A DNA stretch of 43,475 nt. Origin: Spirochaetota bacterium (lineage in GTDB: Bacteria > Spirochaetota > GWE2-31-10). The first letter of the stretch is position 1. Every line of letters starts with the position of its first letter. The translations under genes were made by a program, and so were the position numbers. Positions 120 through 12,832 of the stretch are shown in pieces. Under the pieces are notes generated by a model, which searched no databases, had not been told where the DNA came from, and was given only the letters and a program-made list of their open reading frames with translations. Location: assembly GCA_022361115.1 (NCBI GenBank), contig JAKSBL010000286.1, positions 1 to 43,475 on the forward strand. The letters are read 5' to 3'.

Positions 120-1997
120 ATGAAGTTAAAATATAGTTTTATCAGCACGATATTCATCTTATTAATGCTGTTTTCCTGTTCTTTTAACTCAACCAATGGA
201 AATAAAACAAACCAATCTGATAATCATACTAAAGGATTAGAGAATTTAAAGCAGTCTTCCAGAATGCCTGGTGGTTTTAAAGTTGTTGGTTATATGCCTT
301 CCTGGAGTGGAGATGTCAATCAAATTCAATATGATAAATTAACTCATATCAATTATGCTTTTATACTACCTACTGCTTCCGGGGGAATCCAAGCTGTGGA
401 AAATCCTGCAAAATTAGAATCCTTAGTTTCTCTGGCTCATGCCAGTGGAGTTAAAGTGCTCATTGCTGTTGGGGGATGGAATAATGGTAATGATAGTGCA
501 TTTGAAACTTTGGCAGCCAATGCACAAACACGAACAACTTTTGTTAATAATTTAATGAATTTTGTCCATACTTATAATTTAGATGGTGTTGATATGGATT
601 GGGAATATCCAGATCCAGGTAATTCTGCTACAAATTATGCTCTTTTGATGGATGAACTAGGCCAAAGTCTGCATAGCGAAGGAAAACTCTTAACCGCAGC
701 TGTTGTTGCTTTAGGCTATACAGGAGGCGGGGTTTTAACAGAAGTATTTGACGATGTGGATTTTTTAAACTTAATGGCTTATGATGGAGGAAATGGTGCA
801 GATCATTCTCCTTATAGTTATGCAGTTGAGTCTTTGAACTATTGGAAAGGAAGAGGATTACCTGCAAGTAAAGCTGTAATTGGTGTCCCTTTTTATGGAA
901 GACCAAGCTGGGAATCCTATCGAGCAATCGTTGCTAGAGATCCGGATGCACCAAATAAAGATATTTCTAATGGTGTTTATTACAATGGTATTGCAACAGT
1001 CAAAGCAAAAACCAATCTTGCTTTAGAGCAGGCTGGTGGAATAATGATGTGGGAGTTAAGCCAGGATACTACAGATCATACTTCACTGTTAACTGCCATG
1101 AGTGAAGCAATCCATGGCGGTAATATTTCTCCGGCAGTGAGTGTCACCAGCCCAGCTGATGGAGCACATTTTGCTGAGAATTCCAATATTACTATTACTG
1201 CTGATGCTAATGATAGTGACGGATCGATATCTCAAGTTGAGTTTTTTCAGGGCTCTGTTTTTCTAGGAGTGGATTATTCTGCACCTTATAGTGTAATCTG
1301 GAATAATGTGAGTGAAGGAACTTATACCATTTCAGCTGTTGCTACTGATAATGAAGGGGCTACTGGAACTTCCGGGATCATAACGATATATGTAGGGGAA
1401 TCCAACCCGGGGATACCTGCCTGGGATAGCTCAGAAACCTACTTAAAGGATGATGTAGTAACTCACAATGGCCGCAAATGGCGAGCCAGATGGTGGACCC
1501 AGGGTGAAGAACCTGGTACAACCGGTGAATGGGGTGTTTGGGAAGATCTGGGACCGATTGGTACCCCATCCAATAATCCTCCCAGTATCAGTATTGTCAG
1601 CCCTGCAAATGACAGCAGCTTTGCTGAAAATTCCAATATTACTATCGAAGCTAATGCCGGTGACAGTGATGGTACAATCAGTAGTGTTGAGTTTTTTCAA
1701 AATGGTAATTCTTTAGGCAGTACAACTTCCGCTCCCTATAGTATGACCTGGACTAATGTCGGAGCCGGATCATATACTCTTACTGCAGTAGCGACAGATG
1801 ATGATGGTGCTTCCACAACATCTGGTTCTATTTCTATAACAGTTGGTTCTAGCGGAACTGATACCTGGGCTCCTGGAGTCTATTATGAACTGGGTGATCA
1901 GGTGGTTTACGGCGGGAGAACCTGGACTTGTGTATATGCTCATACTTCCAATGCCTCCTGGTATCCTGGTGCACCAGGCTTATGGTTTTGGGAATAA
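120..1997 (+). CDS. GH18 chitinase lipoprotein with two Ig-like domains and two CBM5/12-type modules
   Basis: Lipobox-like LLMLFSC; GH18 catalytic motif DGVDMDWEYP; repeated SPADGAHFAENSNITI / SPANDSSFAENSNITI Ig-like modules; W-rich CBM5/12 modules (AWDSSETYLKDDVVTHNGRKWRARWWTQGEEPG and the C-terminus). SD AAAGGAG upstream. Confidence 0.93.
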   Translation: MKLKYSFISTIFILLMLFSCSFNSTNGNKTNQSDNHTKGLENLKQSSRMPGGFKVVGYMPSWSGDVNQIQYDKLTHINYAFILPTASGGIQAVENPAKLESLVSLAHASGVKVLIAVGGWNNGNDSAFETLAANAQTRTTFVNNLMNFVHTYNLDGVDMDWEYPDPGNSATNYALLMDELGQSLHSEGKLLTAAVVALGYTGGGVLTEVFDDVDFLNLMAYDGGNGADHSPYSYAVESLNYWKGRGLPASKAVIGVPFYGRPSWESYRAIVARDPDAPNKDISNGVYYNGIATVKAKTNLALEQAGGIMMWELSQDTTDHTSLLTAMSEAIHGGNISPAVSVTSPADGAHFAENSNITITADANDSDGSISQVEFFQGSVFLGVDYSAPYSVIWNNVSEGTYTISAVATDNEGATGTSGIITIYVGESNPGIPAWDSSETYLKDDVVTHNGRKWRARWWTQGEEPGTTGEWGVWEDLGPIGTPSNNPPSISIVSPANDSSFAENSNITIEANAGDSDGTISSVEFFQNGNSLGSTTSAPYSMTWTNVGAGSYTLTAVATDDDGASTTSGSISITVGSSGTDTWAPGVYYELGDQVVYGGRTWTCVYAHTSNASWYPGAPGLWFWE

Positions 1998-4047: not shown

Positions 4048-6129
4048 TTAATGGATAGACAAAGTATAAATATTAGAATTTAAATCTATAAAATAAAGTA
4101 CATTTCCTAATTTTAGTGGCGTACATATTAAAGGGTTATTTGATTGGTTTCCTGGTATTTTTAAAAATCTTGTCTCAGTTGTTTTTAAATCATATGAAAA
4201 TAACTTGCCTTTATCCGAGCAGTAATAAATGCTATTTTCAAATAAAACTGGTTTTTTAACAAGGTAATTGTTGGAGTCAGGATTTTTATCTACTTGGATA
4301 ATAAATTGGGGGAGATCAAATGAGTTGCTGTTTAATTTATAGAATACACCATCATTTCCAATGAAATAGCAAAATGGTTTATGATAAATGATTTCTGAGA
4401 CAACTCCTGCAGGTAATTTTAAAGTTATTGAATTCTGATCATTAAAAGTGGTATCAAAACGATAAATGTTTTCAATACTATCTGCAATGAAAATATAGTT
4501 ATTTGCAAATACAGGTTTCATAAATGCCCTATGCTTTAATGGTGTAGATTGATGGGTAACAATGTTTTTATTTAAATTGTACATTGCTAATTTTTTTGAA
4601 TTAATATTATAGAAGTATAAAATATTGGGTTTTGCTTTTGTAATATATAACTGTCCACTCGTATTAAATATATTATTTGTTTTTTCCAGGCTATTTCCCT
4701 TTAGTATGTATAGAATATCATTTGCTGGAATCAGCAAGCTATCATTGTGAATTTCTGGTTTAGCCCAGTATACAGGACCATCATTGATATTTAAAAGTTT
4801 TAATAATTTTCCTTGCTTAGAAATAATAAAAACATGATTTGAAGTGCTGATTATTAAATTTTTTTGATAGATAAGGGCCGGGGAAGTTAATTTAGAGATT
4901 AAGTGGTGAGTAAATTTCCAAAGTAATTTACCGCTCTTTATGTCAACAGCAGTTAGAGATTTATTAGAATCACTAGTGATATAAATATTATTATTATCAA
5001 TTGCTAAAGATGTTTCTTTTTCATCAAGTTGTAATTGAGGATTAAATGGCAATTTACGAATTATTACCTCTTTTTTTCCTTCCTCTTCATTGTTATGAGT
5101 ACTTTCTATTCTCTGATCAATTGTTTTTTCAGTATTACTATTTGAGACTTGTTTATTATTTTCATCTTTATCATGAGATAGTGGAATGATCAGAGCCTGA
5201 TAACTTTTTTTTAATTGAAAAAGCTTTTTATCCAATTCAGCCATAATCTTTTTTTGTGTATCGGGATCATTTTGATTAGAAAAGTCAATGTTTTTGATAA
5301 ATAGTATTGTTTCCTTTAGCATAATATCAAATTTTTTCACATCACTGCTATTAATAATGATGCTTTGATCCTTAGTTAAAACGACTTTCTCATTGATAAT
5401 TTTGTTAATCTGACTATAGAGATTTTTTTTTAATAGTTCTTTTTGTATAGATTGATCAAGATTAGGCTTTATCCAGATTTTTCCTTCTATTACAGTAATA
5501 GTTGTTTCATCTATTGATTTATTAACTTCAAATTCTGTTCCAATAACATTGATGATCAATTCAGTTGTTGTTATTTTAAATAATGAACCTTTGATAAGTT
5601 TAGCTAGTCTGACCTTAATCATTCCCTTTTTTAGATAAAATGAATTATTAATTATTTTTTTATTTTTTTTCAAACGATTAATTTTTATCTCTGACAGCTG
5701 ATTTAATTCCAACCTTGATTTTTTATCAATTTCTAATTGAATTTGTGAATCATTTTCAGTATAAACTGAAGTTTTTTCTTTGATAATATCGTCTTGATGT
5801 AGTAAATATTTTTTACCCTTTACTATTTTGTAAGCTTTACCATCGATTTTTATTACCTTACACATTGAATAAAATCGATGGTAAAGAAAGGTATTTCTGC
5901 CAATTAATAAACCAATAAGTAAAATAATAATAATTGTAAAACTGAAAACAAACTGGAAAACTAGTGTTTTTCGTTGTGCTTTCTCAGACTCATGATCAAA
6001 ACGTTTTGTCATATACTTCAGTTTTATTTTTAAATTTTCAGGCATTTCATCTAAAGCTGTCTGGTTATTTAAAAGAAAATCAAGAGTTTTATCATCTAAT
6101 TTATCAATCCAGTCTTTTTTTGAAATCAT
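4048..6129 (-). CDS. Anti-sigma-like single-TM protein with FecR domain and C-terminal PQQ-type beta-propeller
   Basis: Cytoplasmic N-terminus, one TM (FVFSFTIIIILLIGLLIG), FecR-like LKKGMIKVRLAK..FKITTTELIINVIGTEFEV..TITVIEGKIWIKP, then PQQ-like repeats (LTAVDIKSGKLLWKFTHHLISKLTSPALIYQKNLIIS). Starts 4 nt inside the ECF sigma gene. Confidence 0.8.
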   Translation of the reverse strand: MISKKDWIDKLDDKTLDFLLNNQTALDEMPENLKIKLKYMTKRFDHESEKAQRKTLVFQFVFSFTIIIILLIGLLIGRNTFLYHRFYSMCKVIKIDGKAYKIVKGKKYLLHQDDIIKEKTSVYTENDSQIQLEIDKKSRLELNQLSEIKINRLKKNKKIINNSFYLKKGMIKVRLAKLIKGSLFKITTTELIINVIGTEFEVNKSIDETTITVIEGKIWIKPNLDQSIQKELLKKNLYSQINKIINEKVVLTKDQSIIINSSDVKKFDIMLKETILFIKNIDFSNQNDPDTQKKIMAELDKKLFQLKKSYQALIIPLSHDKDENNKQVSNSNTEKTIDQRIESTHNNEEEGKKEVIIRKLPFNPQLQLDEKETSLAIDNNNIYITSDSNKSLTAVDIKSGKLLWKFTHHLISKLTSPALIYQKNLIISTSNHVFIISKQGKLLKLLNINDGPVYWAKPEIHNDSLLIPANDILYILKGNSLEKTNNIFNTSGQLYITKAKPNILYFYNINSKKLAMYNLNKNIVTHQSTPLKHRAFMKPVFANNYIFIADSIENIYRFDTTFNDQNSITLKLPAGVVSEIIYHKPFCYFIGNDGVFYKLNSNSFDLPQFIIQVDKNPDSNNYLVKKPVLFENSIYYCSDKGKLFSYDLKTTETRFLKIPGNQSNNPLICTPLKLGNVLYFIDLNSNIYTLSIH

Positions 6130-6692
6130 GAGAAAAAATCCCTATTATTTTTTTTTAGTTCAGTTTTAAGTTTTTTTCTGGCCTTAAATAATAAGCTTTC
6201 AACAGCAACAACTGATTTATTGATGATTTGAGCGATTTCTTTTTGTGATTTATGTTCTATATATTTTAATTTAATAACTTTTTTATACTGGTCATTAAGA
6301 TTTTCCAATGCCATATTGAGCATTAGTATTTTTTCCTTTAACATTAAATCATCCAAATGATCATTAGATAAGGTTTGCTGGCCATTGGATTTCTCAATGA
6401 TTATTTTTTCCTTATACTTTTTTCGAAGGTGATCATTAAACCGCCGGGAAGCAATTTGAAATATCCAGGCTTGTAGTCCTTTGATTTTTTTTAATTTTGG
6501 AGCTGATTTTAAAACAGAATAAAATGTCTCTGCTGATAATTCTTCTGCTGCATCCTGATCTCCATTTGTTTTAATTAAAAGATAATTATAAATTTTTTTT
6601 CCATATTCTTCATATATTTTCTGAAATATTATCGGATCACGTTTTTTGATTTTTTTTAGATCGTCATCTGCAAAAAAAATAATTATTATCAT
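6126..6692 (-). CDS. ECF-type RNA polymerase sigma factor
   Basis: Region 2 (DAAEELSAETFYSVLKS..GLQAWIFQIASRRFNDHLRKK) and region 4 HTH (YKKVIKLKYIEHKSQKEIAQIINKSVVAVESLLFKARKKL). Confidence 0.92.
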   Translation of the reverse strand: MIIIIFFADDDLKKIKKRDPIIFQKIYEEYGKKIYNYLLIKTNGDQDAAEELSAETFYSVLKSAPKLKKIKGLQAWIFQIASRRFNDHLRKKYKEKIIIEKSNGQQTLSNDHLDDLMLKEKILMLNMALENLNDQYKKVIKLKYIEHKSQKEIAQIINKSVVAVESLLFKARKKLKTELKKNNRDFFS

Positions 6693-7750
6693 TTTTTTGT
6701 ACTATTTCTTTTTATTTTTCTTTTGAAATGAATTATATACCCTAAATCAATGGTGATGCAATGAAAAAAAGTCTGTTTTGAAAAATCGAAATTACTCCAG
6801 TTAACTAATGCATAGCCAATTTTACAGGAAAAGCCTTTTATAAAAAAACCAGTTTTAAACCCAAATAACAATAAACCACCAATATCAAATAAAAATGCAA
6901 TCCTTTTATGTTTTAAATCGCCAAACATAAATTGCATAAGTAGTAAAGTACTACCATTTGAACCTATATCATTGTTATCACCCATGTTGCTAGAATGAAA
7001 TAAAATGAGAAATCCTGAAAAACCGGAACCAAAAGCAAAATAAGGAGTAAATCCATATAAATAACCGAAACTTCCTCCAAAGGCTCCACCATTTCCTTGA
7101 ATACCAGAATACTCATTTGTATAAGTATTATTTAGTTGATAAATTCTAGTATAACATCCCAGCAAAGAAATATTTAAAAAATGACGTTTCCAGTAAACCG
7201 GATGATCATTTTCTGACATTTTTAACCGCATCATTTCATCAAAATAGCTTTTATCTACCATCTTGATATTTTGATTCATTTTTTGAGCAATGTCTTTTGA
7301 GGATTCATCAACAACCCTGAAGACATCAATTCCTAGTTCACCTGTAACGGTACTTCCAGCAACAATCTGATTTTTGAAAATATCAATTGCAGAAATCGTA
7401 ATTAAAATATGATCCTCAATTATTGTATATTTACCAATCACTATAACATCAGATTTAAGTTCCATAGCAAGTTTTTGGGCTTTTTCTTCATTAATGAAAA
7501 TCTTCAATCCTAGTGTTTCTATTTTTTTATCTATAAGAGAAAAATCAGTATACAGATACTGGCCTGTATTGACTAATTGACTGCGAAGAGCATCCCTGAG
7601 TATTCCTGAGAGGTACTCATATTCTTTATTATCATTAACATTATAAAATGGTAAAATTAAAACGGTTCTTTTAACTAGATCATCTGAGTAAAGCTGAACT
7701 GAACCTAAAATAAAGATCAGAAAAATGATTATTATTAAATATGTTTTCAT
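6689..7750 (-). CDS. Secreted protein: TolB-N/CsgG-like N-terminal domain plus predicted outer-membrane beta-barrel-like C-terminus
   Basis: Signal peptide; RTVLILPFYNVNDNKEYEYLSGILRDALRSQL..DVIVIGKYTI resembles TolB-N/CsgG-type domains; C-terminal Gly/aromatic alternating strands. Confidence 0.6.
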   Translation of the reverse strand: MKTYLIIIIFLIFILGSVQLYSDDLVKRTVLILPFYNVNDNKEYEYLSGILRDALRSQLVNTGQYLYTDFSLIDKKIETLGLKIFINEEKAQKLAMELKSDVIVIGKYTIIEDHILITISAIDIFKNQIVAGSTVTGELGIDVFRVVDESSKDIAQKMNQNIKMVDKSYFDEMMRLKMSENDHPVYWKRHFLNISLLGCYTRIYQLNNTYTNEYSGIQGNGGAFGGSFGYLYGFTPYFAFGSGFSGFLILFHSSNMGDNNDIGSNGSTLLLMQFMFGDLKHKRIAFLFDIGGLLLFGFKTGFFIKGFSCKIGYALVNWSNFDFSKQTFFHCITIDLGYIIHFKRKIKRNSTKK

Positions 7751-8048
7751 GTAATCTTCCCCAAAAATACTTCTTACTTGATTAGTCGACTCGATTTATG
7801 AAATCTTGCCTGTTTGCGTATAGTATTTATTTGATTTAGAATTTTAAAAAAGTACCAGTTCAATGTTAATCAGGAAAGCCATTAATAAGATTATAAAATA
7901 AATTTATTAAGTAGCAAGAGTATTAATTTTTTTAAACAATTCTCACTATTTATTTTTAAAATATCTAAAAATAAATAAAGGAATTCTATCTTTTAAAATA
8001 CCTCTTAATGCTATTGTTACGAACACATTCTAATTTTGGATAGTTAAT

Positions 8049-8618
8049 TTAATGTGGAAGAACAGGTAAAATAACTTCAGGCTCATATAATTTAATATTA
8101 AAATCGATTTCAAATGTAATTTTTTCAATTTCTGGTAAAGCACTTGTATTCGTAAGAACACCAATATATAAACCCCAAACATAACCTGGTATACGAGAAT
8201 AATTAAGAAGAAGAGTTCCATCACCTTCTAATGATAAATAGCACTGATTAGTTGTATAACTAATAGAAACTAATGGATCATGACCAACTGGAAAATTACC
8301 ATCTGTAATTGAATCAACAATAATCCAAATATCAAAAGATAAGGTTCGATGCTTAATTTGTATTTGTGTGTTTTCCTTATCAAGAATAGCAAATAAATTG
8401 GGCGTACAAAGATCATCTGGTTCATTATAATATACTTGTTCTGGTAAACCATTAAAAGAAATATGCATTTCACTATTGTTTTCAATACTACAAAGTGAGG
8501 ATTTCTCAGAATTTGGTATATCTTCAAGCTTATTACCAATAAAATCACAGTTTATCAATAACAAAGAAATAAAGAATAATAGCATCCAGGTCATTTTTTT
8601 GTAAATAATATTTATCAT
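8049..8618 (-). CDS. Hypothetical lipoprotein, beta-rich
   Basis: Signal peptide with lipobox LLLINC; no family recognised. Confidence 0.65.
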   Translation of the reverse strand: MINIIYKKMTWMLLFFISLLLINCDFIGNKLEDIPNSEKSSLCSIENNSEMHISFNGLPEQVYYNEPDDLCTPNLFAILDKENTQIQIKHRTLSFDIWIIVDSITDGNFPVGHDPLVSISYTTNQCYLSLEGDGTLLLNYSRIPGYVWGLYIGVLTNTSALPEIEKITFEIDFNIKLYEPEVILPVLPH

Positions 8619-8817: not shown

Positions 8818-10005
8818 ATGAGACATAATTTTAATCTTTTATTTTTATTCACTTTGTTTTGTTTATTGGTAAGCGGTTGTTCAGTTGCTGAAAATAGTGA
8901 AGAGAATAGTTATCAGACTATTGATGCTAATATTCGCAATAAGGTTAGTGATTTTGATGAAACTAGCATAATTACCGCAATTGATTCTGATGATTTCGTA
9001 GGAGAATACACGTCTATTGCAGTGAATGGTGACAATATTTATATTTCCTATTTTGATCATACAAATGGGGATTTAAAGGTGGCTAGATCAAATAATAGAG
9101 GAATTTCTTGGGATACAAAAACAATTGATTCTTATGGTACTGTAGGCTGGGATACCTCAATAACAGTTGTAGATGAAAATATTTATGTAGCTTATTATGA
9201 TTTAACCAATCATGATTTAAAGTTTGCTAAATCAACTAATGGAGGTAACTTATGGGACCCTCTTGATATTAGAACAGTTGATGAAACTGGTTATGTTGGG
9301 AAACATACATCAATAACTGCTGATCATAATTATATTTATATTTCTTATTCTGATCATACAAACAGGGATTTAAAATTTGCCAGATCAGATGACAATGGAG
9401 ATACCTGGGAATTACAAACAGTAGATTCAATAGGTGTTATAGGTACTTATACTTCTATAAAAAATGAAGGCTCAAATGTATATATATCTTATTATGATAT
9501 AACAAATAGAGATTTGAAGCTGGCTGCTTCTGCTGATGAAGGACTCACATGGGAAAGAATTATAGTAGATGGTATAGGGAATGTAGGTGCAGATACATCA
9601 ATTGCAGTAGATGAATCAGATTTATACTTTTCATACCGGGATACAGTGGGTAGAGATTTAAAGTTTGCAAAATTAACCAAAAAAGAAGGCATTTGGCACC
9701 ATATCTATGTTAAAACCATTGATTCTATAGATGATGTTGGTTATGCCACATCCATATCCTTAGAAAATAATTATGTTTATATTTCCTATTATGATCGAAC
9801 AAATGGGGATTTAAAGTTTGCAAAATCAAGAGATTGGGGTAAAACCTGGCTTCTTGGTGATATTATAGTAGTGGATTCAACAGATAATGTTGGCGAGCAT
9901 TCGTCCATAGCTTGCTACTTTTCTAATGTATATATTTCATATTGGGATCACACAAATAGAGATTTGAAGTTTGCAAAATCAGTGGATAGAGGAAGTACCT
10001 GGTAA
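8818..10005 (+). CDS. Lipoprotein with seven Asp-box/BNR-like repeats (predicted seven-bladed beta-propeller)
   Basis: Lipobox LLVSGC; seven ~48-aa repeats VGxxTSI..YISYxDxTNxDLKFAKSxDxGxTW. SD AAGGAGG. Confidence 0.85.
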   Translation: MRHNFNLLFLFTLFCLLVSGCSVAENSEENSYQTIDANIRNKVSDFDETSIITAIDSDDFVGEYTSIAVNGDNIYISYFDHTNGDLKVARSNNRGISWDTKTIDSYGTVGWDTSITVVDENIYVAYYDLTNHDLKFAKSTNGGNLWDPLDIRTVDETGYVGKHTSITADHNYIYISYSDHTNRDLKFARSDDNGDTWELQTVDSIGVIGTYTSIKNEGSNVYISYYDITNRDLKLAASADEGLTWERIIVDGIGNVGADTSIAVDESDLYFSYRDTVGRDLKFAKLTKKEGIWHHIYVKTIDSIDDVGYATSISLENNYVYISYYDRTNGDLKFAKSRDWGKTWLLGDIIVVDSTDNVGEHSSIACYFSNVYISYWDHTNRDLKFAKSVDRGSTW

Positions 10006-10228: not shown

Positions 10229-12832
10229 ATGACAATCAGAGAACATGCAGATCAAACAGAAAAGAAATTTGGTATCCGGGCAGTTGATATTCATAAATGG
10301 ATAGATGGATTTTTTGATGCAGAAAGTTTTGAGTTATTTATCAAAGGAAAAACAGGAGTTGATTTTAATCCCTATGAACATCGCAGATATCGTCATTGCC
10401 GGGAAGCATTAAAAGAGGCTTATCAGGAATTCCAGTCGAAATATAGTAAGGATCAGATTAAAGCAGTATTTGAATCTCACTTAAAGGATGATTATAACGG
10501 ATATATCCCTTGCCGCAATGATTTCGAAAATGGCCTGTTTCGGGAAAAATATCATGAAAGAGGGGATTTTCAGGATAAAGTCCTGACTTCAGTTGAATTA
10601 TCTGAATATTTCAAGGGTAAAAATTATCAAATTTCAAATAAAAATAAACAGAAAACAGATTTTAAATTTTTACTGCGGATTATTCTTCCTGTTTTAATCG
10701 CTTTGGTATTATTTTTAGGAACAGGTTTAATTTTCATCATTCCGGTTTATTATGATATTATGATGAATAATAAAAAAATCCTGATTAAAGAACTGGTCAA
10801 TACAGCTGCCAGTTCTATAAGTTATTATATACAAGAAGAAAAAAATCATAATTTGACCAGGCAGGAAGCCCAAAAAATGGCTCACTTAGAAGTAGAAAAA
10901 ATGCGTTATGGAGTTGATGGAAAAGATTACTTTTTTATAACGGACATGCACCCTTTTATGATTATGCATCCCTATCGAAATGATTTGGTAGGTGAGGATT
11001 TAAATCATTACAAAGACAGTGAAGATAAAAGCGGGAAAAAAATCTTTGTAGAGTTTGTTAAAATTGTGAAAAATTATCAGGAAGGCTATCTTGAGTATTG
11101 CTGGCAATGGATGGATGATACAGATCAAAAAGCATTAAAACTATCTTATGTGAAGGGTATTCCTGAATGGAACTGGATAATAGGAACCGGTATTTATATT
11201 AACGATATAGAAGAAGAAATTAATGCATTTACTGATAAATTACTTCTTGTTTTTAGTATTATCTCTTTAATGATTTGCTTGGCTCTCTTTTATGTCATCA
11301 TGCAGAGTAAAAAAATTGAAACAAATCGGCAATACTTTGAACTCGGTTTAATTGAAGCAAAAAATCGGTACCGGGCATTAGTTGAATCTGCCAATGAAGG
11401 TTATATTCTGGAAATCGGCGGAGAGCATGTTTATTCCAACCATACTTTACAACGTTTGTTAGACTATAATGAAGAAGAATTGACTGAGCTAAAACTTTTT
11501 GATTTATTAGATAAAGTCTATCCTGCTAATTTAGATCCCAAAGAATATTTAACAAAATTATATCAGTCCTTTGTAGAGCCAAAAAAGTTTGAAGCCAGAT
11601 TAATAACGAAAGGGGGTTATCCAATTGATTTAATTATCAGTGTTTCTAATTTGTTTTTTTCTCAAAAAAATGGACATGTTATTTCGTTTAGAGAAAAGCA
11701 ACAAAATAAAGAACATATATTTTCCCGGTTAGCCCATTTCCCTTTATTAAAAAGCAGTTTTAATTCTAAGCAAGACCATTCTGTTTTAAATATCCAATCA
11801 ATAGTGAAAAATATAATAGAAAGCAATGAATCAACTCAGATAATCAAGTTATTAAACCAGCTGCCTCAACAGGTTTCTCATATGCTGAATACAGGGTTAG
11901 ATCCCCAAATCATTAGAAGTTATGTGAATGAGAGCTATCAAGCAGCAAGTCAAAAATTTATAGAAATAGCAGTCAAAGCATTGGGACAACCACCAGTAAA
12001 ATTTTGTTTTTTTGCCTTAGGCAGTAGTGCAAGAGGAGAAATGACTCTGTTTTCTGATCAGGATAATGCTCTGGTCTATCAGGATGTTTCTGTAGCAAAT
12101 AAAAATGAAGTTGAAAAGTATTTTTTAAAGTTGTCATCTAATGTTAATCAAAATTTAGATCAAGCAGGGTTTCATATTTGTCCAGGTGGATTAGTTGCTT
12201 CAAACAGCAAGTGGTGTTTAACCCTCTCTCATTGGCAAGCCTTGTTTCAAGACTGGTTTGAAGCAATGAATCCTGAGGCTTTTTTAAAAATTAATGTTTT
12301 TGCAGATACAAAATATGTTTATGGTAACCAGGAACTATTAATCAATCTGCAGGAAAATTTTAGAAATTATTCTCAAAATAATACCCCTTTTTTTAATCTT
12401 TATGTGAATAATTCCTTACTTTATAAAGTCCCTATGAATTTATTAGGGGGAATCAAAACAGATAAAAAAAAAAAAAAAAAAAATATCAATATTAAAGCCT
12501 GTTTAAAACCATTGGAAATTGGTTCCAGGATTTATGCATTAAAAAATGAAATCACCGCAACCAGCACAAGCGACCGTTTATATGCATTGCTGAACAAGAA
12601 AAAAATCTCATCTAATCTTTATCAAAATAGCATCTATGCTTTTTATTATCTCTGGAATTTGCGATTTTATAATCAAATTATTTTGAATGCTGATCTGGAG
12701 AAATTAAATGATGAACTGGATTTAAGTCGGCTTTCTGAAATTGAAGTTGAGAATTTAAAAACAGTTCTAAATCAAATTCAGAATTTTCAAAACAGGTTAA
12801 ATAGTGATTTTATTGGCAGAGTAAGAATATAA
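10229..12832 (+). CDS. Membrane sensor protein: sCache-like domain, PAS domain, DUF294-type (GlnD-like) nucleotidyltransferase and C-terminal substrate-binding region
   Basis: TM segments flank a Cache-like region (MRYGVDGKDYFFITDMHPFMIMHPYRNDLVG..GIPEWNWIIGTGIYI); PAS-like ALVESANEGYILEIGGEHVYSNHTLQRLLDYNEEEL; NTase motif ALGSSARGEMTLFSDQDNALVY; DUF294_C-like tail. Confidence 0.8.
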   Translation: MTIREHADQTEKKFGIRAVDIHKWIDGFFDAESFELFIKGKTGVDFNPYEHRRYRHCREALKEAYQEFQSKYSKDQIKAVFESHLKDDYNGYIPCRNDFENGLFREKYHERGDFQDKVLTSVELSEYFKGKNYQISNKNKQKTDFKFLLRIILPVLIALVLFLGTGLIFIIPVYYDIMMNNKKILIKELVNTAASSISYYIQEEKNHNLTRQEAQKMAHLEVEKMRYGVDGKDYFFITDMHPFMIMHPYRNDLVGEDLNHYKDSEDKSGKKIFVEFVKIVKNYQEGYLEYCWQWMDDTDQKALKLSYVKGIPEWNWIIGTGIYINDIEEEINAFTDKLLLVFSIISLMICLALFYVIMQSKKIETNRQYFELGLIEAKNRYRALVESANEGYILEIGGEHVYSNHTLQRLLDYNEEELTELKLFDLLDKVYPANLDPKEYLTKLYQSFVEPKKFEARLITKGGYPIDLIISVSNLFFSQKNGHVISFREKQQNKEHIFSRLAHFPLLKSSFNSKQDHSVLNIQSIVKNIIESNESTQIIKLLNQLPQQVSHMLNTGLDPQIIRSYVNESYQAASQKFIEIAVKALGQPPVKFCFFALGSSARGEMTLFSDQDNALVYQDVSVANKNEVEKYFLKLSSNVNQNLDQAGFHICPGGLVASNSKWCLTLSHWQALFQDWFEAMNPEAFLKINVFADTKYVYGNQELLINLQENFRNYSQNNTPFFNLYVNNSLLYKVPMNLLGGIKTDKKKKKKNINIKACLKPLEIGSRIYALKNEITATSTSDRLYALLNKKKISSNLYQNSIYAFYYLWNLRFYNQIILNADLEKLNDELDLSRLSEIEVENLKTVLNQIQNFQNRLNSDFIGRVRI
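12464..12483 (+). repeat. A20 homopolymer inside a CDS
   Basis: Twenty consecutive A, encoding TDKKKKKKN. Confidence 0.95.

Follow-up and report, generated by a model that had tools for sequence, protein, structure and literature searches.

An ECF sigma factor operon with a FecR-propeller regulator and a TolB-N/FlgO-domain protein in a Spirochaetota bacterium

Operon layout and genomic setting

We analysed a stretch of 43,475 nucleotides, hereafter the window. It carries three same-strand genes:

7751-8048 (-), gap upstream of the first gene, presumed operon promoter region
6689-7750 (-), first gene, P0003, 353-aa TolB-N/FlgO-domain envelope protein (ORF; Pfam FlgO, 1.9e-6; AlphaFold; Foldseek)
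6126-6692 (-), P0002, 188-aa ECF sigma factor, whose gene overlaps both flanking genes (Sigma70_r2, 1.1e-9; r4_2, 4.2e-14; TIGR02937, 1.3e-24)
4048-6129 (-), P0001, 693-aa FecR-propeller sigma regulator (Pfam; AlphaFold)

As a preliminary description of this DNA had proposed, the ORFs are joined by two 4-nt overlaps (6692-6689 and 6129-6126), both reading ATGA. The sigma gene begins within the stop codon of the first gene and, at its other end, runs into the FecR start codon. Direct reading of the sequence revealed no clear ribosome-binding site before the sigma start, which together with the ATGA overlap fits translational coupling. A search of upstream regions, including 7751-8048, gave no shared ECF promoter motif with a signal above shuffles. 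Since genes resembling tig, clpP, clpX and lon, recognised from their translations, lie on the same contig, the operon is chromosomal.

P0002 is a small protein with only sigma-70 regions 2 and 4 (Pfam, TIGR02937), which places it among the ECF sigma factors. Sigma factors of the window's clade begin with a few hydrophobic residues ahead of region 2 (6692-6660 in the window; also L042, L044, L045 and L120), with sequences such as MIIIIFFADDDL, MIFIFIIIW and MFFILIL. This hydrophobic start could be an artefact of coupling via the overlap.

P0001 joins a FecR domain to a BamB-like propeller

The third gene encodes a protein with the following parts:

5974-6129 (-), residues ~1-52, cytoplasmic N-terminus, presumed sigma-binding segment (from the anchor pattern across relatives)
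5902-5958 (-), residues ~58-76, single TM helix (hydropathy; AlphaFold helix 51-83)
5464-5865 (-), residues 89-222, periplasmic FecR domain (PF04773 at 122-218; beta-rich in AlphaFold)
5536-5541 (-), Gly197-Thr198, aligned with the E. coli FecR self-cleavage site G181-T182
4054-5013 (-), residues 373-692, eight-bladed BamB/PQQ-type propeller (PQQ_2, ACSF4 propeller; AlphaFold; Foldseek)

With Pfam matches counted only above each family's cut-off (FecR, PQQ_2, sigma-70 r2, r4_2, FlgO), P0001 scored for FecR (6.9e-13) and PQQ_2 (8.4e-7). In its AlphaFold model (mean pLDDT 75) the FecR domain is followed by a helical linker (226-312) and a low-confidence stretch, and the strands of residues 373-692 were counted as eight four-stranded blades. 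Foldseek returned BamB as the best solved structure match of the propeller (E 1.4e-17), and a sequence profile also brought up BamB together with designed propellers. The earlier suggestion that a FecR-like protein carries a propeller was thus borne out for both folds, by Pfam profiles and by AlphaFold. The propeller shares the eight-bladed PQQ-type fold of BamB; the likeness is at the fold level only (10-14% identity), and whereas BamB is a free lipoprotein, the P0001 propeller is fused behind a TM helix and a FecR domain, and none of our results marks it as a Bam component.

A FecR system without a recognised transducer

FecR regulators are known mainly via iron receptors. The window operon has in common with FecI-FecR-FecA of E. 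coli an ECF gene adjoining a FecR-domain regulator with one TM helix, an aligned GT site and operon linkage. It differs in that no FecA-type transducer was found and DUF4880 and FecR_C are absent, a propeller being present instead and a TolB-N protein co-encoded. In the same scan, E. coli FecR as a control scored for DUF4880, FecR and FecR_C, and P0001 for FecR only. The FecR_C domain (PF16344) that it lacks is the equivalent of the transducer-docking subdomain; in PupR, both periplasmic subdomains are required to bind the signalling domain of the transducer (PMC9249621).

The neighbouring genes listed include no classical plug or transducer gene, in agreement with the preliminary description. 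The genome to which the window belongs (86% complete) yielded no gene that combines Plug with STN, and thus no TonB-dependent receptor with an N-terminal STN domain. It does encode proteins resembling TonB-dependent receptors, and two Plug-domain proteins were found, so a classical TonB-dependent transducer encoded elsewhere might signal to P0001. We regard this as quite improbable, since the sole STN match is in a 143-aa ORF on another contig and P0001 has no FecR_C. The missing FecR_C and the failure to find an STN receptor point to the propeller as the candidate receiver.

E. coli FecR cleaves itself at G181-T182 and is then processed further, RseP cutting in the membrane (PMC8144685). In an alignment of 19 TM-type FecR-propeller proteins, Gly-Thr was among 7 invariant columns, and P0001 has the site at the sequence level. 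The motif also occurs in lipoprotein forms of the FecR-propeller protein and may therefore be conserved for structural reasons; in FoxR, self-cleavage is dispensable (PMC9249621). Members of the site-2 protease family were found in all eight genomes tested, the matches in the window's own MAG being partial.

The first gene encodes a TolB-N/FlgO protein with a distinct C-terminus

P0003 has a signal-peptide-like N-terminus without a lipobox, followed by two regions:

7211-7669 (-), residues 28-180, TolB-N/FlgO/CsgG-like alpha-beta domain (AlphaFold block means ~64-91; Foldseek)
6692-7207 (-), residues 182-353, C-terminal region, possible beta-barrel (low AlphaFold confidence)

The AlphaFold model of residues 28-180 matched the TolB N-domain, PelC, LpoB, FlgT and CsgG in Foldseek (E 1e-6 to 1e-4). 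The preliminary description had read the gene as a TolB-N/CsgG-like domain coupled to a barrel. Pfam, AlphaFold and Foldseek uphold the domain; the barrel found no such support, residues 182-353 being left unmodelled by AlphaFold. Aromatic residues and glycine make up 34% of this region, which is related to L051, a protein that stands alone (E 4e-18), and to the C-terminal part of a longer protein, L052 (E 7e-18). A PDB search with its alignment gave no meaningful match, and a strand-alternation barrel test was negative but uninformative, as it also was for OMP comparators. In relatives of P0003 from G004 (MAG JAFGQB01, Spirochaetes bacterium Zod_Metabat.719, of the same taxonomic order as the window) this region instead resembles a pair of hydrophobic helices, which means that a barrel cannot be required. 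P0003 therefore resembles the TolB N-domain/FlgO/CsgG/PelC/LpoB superfamily in its N-terminal domain, but differs in its C-terminal region and in having neither a TolB propeller nor a lipobox.

The sigma-FecR-propeller pair recurs across Spirochaetota

A single-sequence scan of genome contigs recovered no relatives, and an alignment query recovered the G004 relative only. By a profile search of 393 Spirochaetota genomes, FecR-propeller matches at E <= 1e-60, lipoprotein forms included, were found in 36. Among the sampled Spirochaetota, a TM-type FecR-propeller gene with an ECF gene directly upstream occurs at 24 loci in ten families, and this recurrence shows that the linkage of the pair exceeds chance. 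Sigma and FecR distances are correlated (Mantel r 0.82, 0/5000 permutations), a figure that also reflects species relatedness.

Could the linkage merely record the common descent of a single gene block? Several lineages do have this block at a conserved location near rplT, separated from it by an OMP-like gene that precedes sigma; some of the FecR proteins there carry PEGA. However, the pair also occurs elsewhere, on the tig-clpPX-lon contig in the window and on three separate contigs in G004, and the anchor type of the FecR protein follows the presence of a sigma gene (see below). We find ancestry without function barely credible. As a side observation, the OMP-like and ECF/FecR-propeller genes lie near a gene reading as rplT in L058, L060, L121, L124, L096 and L105, some with a ZapA-like gene between.

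The third gene is less constant. G004 carries three clusters in the order sigma, FecR-propeller, FlgO, and two FecR-propeller lipoproteins without sigma. The order sigma, FecR-propeller, partner is found in G001, from the window's family, and in G006, from its taxonomic order, the G006 partner being divergent and scoring for PEGA only. G019 has the same gene order as the window (FlgO-like, sigma, FecR-propeller). A linked FlgO/TolB-N gene was thus seen only in the window's taxonomic order (the window's own genome G000, G004 three times, G001 and, with a divergent partner, G006) and in one further family, with G019. Elsewhere, in several lineages, the gene preceding sigma is OMP-like; the FlgO profile finds nothing in these genes, and those scanned against Pfam gave no match. 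The expected three-gene linkage in homologues was therefore retained in ten families for sigma and FecR, and was not seen for the third gene beyond the window's order and G019.

Since the FlgO/TolB-N partner is not conserved further, its role may be that of an output and not of the sensor: it would be a product of the regulon made when sigma is active, and the propeller alone would sense misfolded proteins or some soluble ligand in the periplasm. Lineage-specific FlgO/TolB-N neighbours beside a sigma-FecR-propeller pair kept in ten families fit this scheme, as do several FlgO-like genes of G004 that lie apart from any sigma, beside predicted lipoproteins (L047, L048). Yet the close ATGA overlaps in the window hint that the three proteins are made in matched quantities, as would rather suit a complex, and the sigma-less FecR-propeller lipoprotein L043 also has a FlgO-like neighbour, that is, co-occurrence without regulation. 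We judge this scheme less likely than not.

Anchor type tracks the adjacent sigma gene

An ECF ORF lies immediately upstream in 24/24 FecR-propeller proteins to which the scoring assigned a cytoplasmic tail and one TM helix (a helix beginning no earlier than residue 35), whereas none of the lipoprotein forms has an ECF gene directly upstream. Comparison of 24/24 with 0/20 gave a Fisher p of ~6e-13, a value that ignores relatedness and the exceptions of family f29. The loci were picked for their resemblance to the query, some starts and signal calls (L100, L101, L103 and L134) are uncertain, and the six-frame search for upstream sigma genes covered selected loci (finding those of L122, L125 and L127) rather than every lipoprotein locus.

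The cytoplasmic tail is present in TM forms beside an ECF gene, and a lipoprotein signal stands in its place in forms without one. The swap is seen within a single genome, G004, where L043 and L046 have a lipobox and no sigma gene. At six loci (L096, L098, L119, L124, L125 and L127) a second FecR-propeller gene, mostly of the lipoprotein form, follows the TM form in tandem behind the ECF gene. The case for the tail as the part that binds sigma draws most of its strength from this match between anchor type and ECF adjacency. The exceptions are four FecR proteins of family f29, from small genomes (L106, L114, L115 and L118), which are TM-anchored without an adjacent ECF gene; unlinked ECFs are present elsewhere in these genomes. 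Pfam gave a weak propeller in L114 and L115, and the scoring script detected none in L106, L115 and L118. L114, whose TM helix begins at residue 33, was for that reason classed by the script as an N-terminal-signal form.

The lipoprotein copies raise another explanation, that FecR-propeller proteins are mainly BamB-like structural or assembly factors and that the sigma-linked forms act as an RseA-like envelope-stress switch, not as a surface-signal system. Sigma-less lipoprotein forms in many genomes, those in tandem behind the TM form (L096, L098, L119, L124, L127) and the ranking of BamB as best fold match are all in keeping with it; against it, the likeness to BamB is at the fold level, with 10-14% identity. 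We consider this explanation doubtful.

A possible route of signal transfer

Building on the domain content, topology and linkage established by computation, we think it probable, with some reserve, that the operon encodes an ECF/FecR trans-envelope signalling unit independent of a TonB transducer, in which the propeller serves in the periplasm as a sensor or for docking. The families of these proteins strongly suggest that the FecR-propeller protein is an anti-sigma factor, whose ~52-residue cytoplasmic tail would hold the ECF sigma factor at the inner membrane; to judge from them, its periplasmic FecR domain also probably cleaves itself at Gly197-Thr198. The propeller would replace FecR_C, which in classical systems helps to dock the TonB-dependent transducer, and would act as periplasmic receiver. 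The sensing step, for which the preliminary description had proposed the propeller or the barrel as sensor, is conjecture, as are the partner, the signal and the regulon: the propeller would most likely engage a partner in the envelope. In the window this would be the co-encoded TolB-N/FlgO protein; other lineages would use a lipoprotein FecR-propeller or an OMP-like protein encoded alongside. Were the partner to change, the anchor would become exposed to site-2-type proteolysis, a step again suggested by family membership, and the freed sigma would direct transcription of the operon and of envelope genes.

An ECF-FecR pair without a recognised transducer has been tested in Leptospira, LIC_12757/LIC_12756 (PMC12155086, PMC13118517, PMC12655853). 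The short cytoplasmic N-terminal domain of LIC_12756 binds its ECF and acts as an anti-sigma factor (PMC13118517), and none of the predicted TonB receptors of Leptospira has a signalling extension (PMC12155086). The pair of Leptospira interrogans shares with the window operon a spirochaete ECF and a single-pass FecR-like regulator, but LIC_12756 has 350 aa, no propeller has been described in it and no FlgO/TolB-N gene is reported alongside (PMC12155086, PMC13118517). An ECF governed by FecR but lacking a known transducer is thus already on record, and the propeller version varies this theme; it is moderately surprising. The open-access literature searched gave no description of a FecR-propeller fusion, which may already be listed in the main ECF re-classification, nor of a propeller in the place of FecR_C, matched lipoprotein copies or a co-encoded TolB-N protein.

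More tentatively, these proteins might form a spirochaete-wide, TonB-independent FecR class in which a BamB-like propeller reads an outer-envelope partner (TolB-N/FlgO, OMP or sister lipoprotein propeller) and releases the ECF; this broader reading is possible rather than probable. As to how spirochaete FecR-regulated ECFs receive their signal, the propeller fusion and its matched lipoprotein copies offer a concrete candidate receiver with testable partners.

Other genes in the window

Upstream of the operon, 8049-8618 (-) and 8818-10005 (+) encode two predicted lipoproteins, the latter with repeated YISYxDxTNxDLKFA units and weak BNR-propeller matches. Predicted lipoproteins adjoin FlgO-like genes in relatives too (L044, L047, L053, L054). 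The gene at 10229-12832 (+) encodes a membrane protein that reads as an unusual mix of a Cache-like sensor, a PAS-like region and a nucleotidyltransferase motif (GSSARGEMTLFSDQD). A gene at 120-1997 (+), for a chitinase-like secreted protein that contains Ig-like and carbohydrate-binding-like repeats, lies in a GC-richer region (0.41 against ~0.3).
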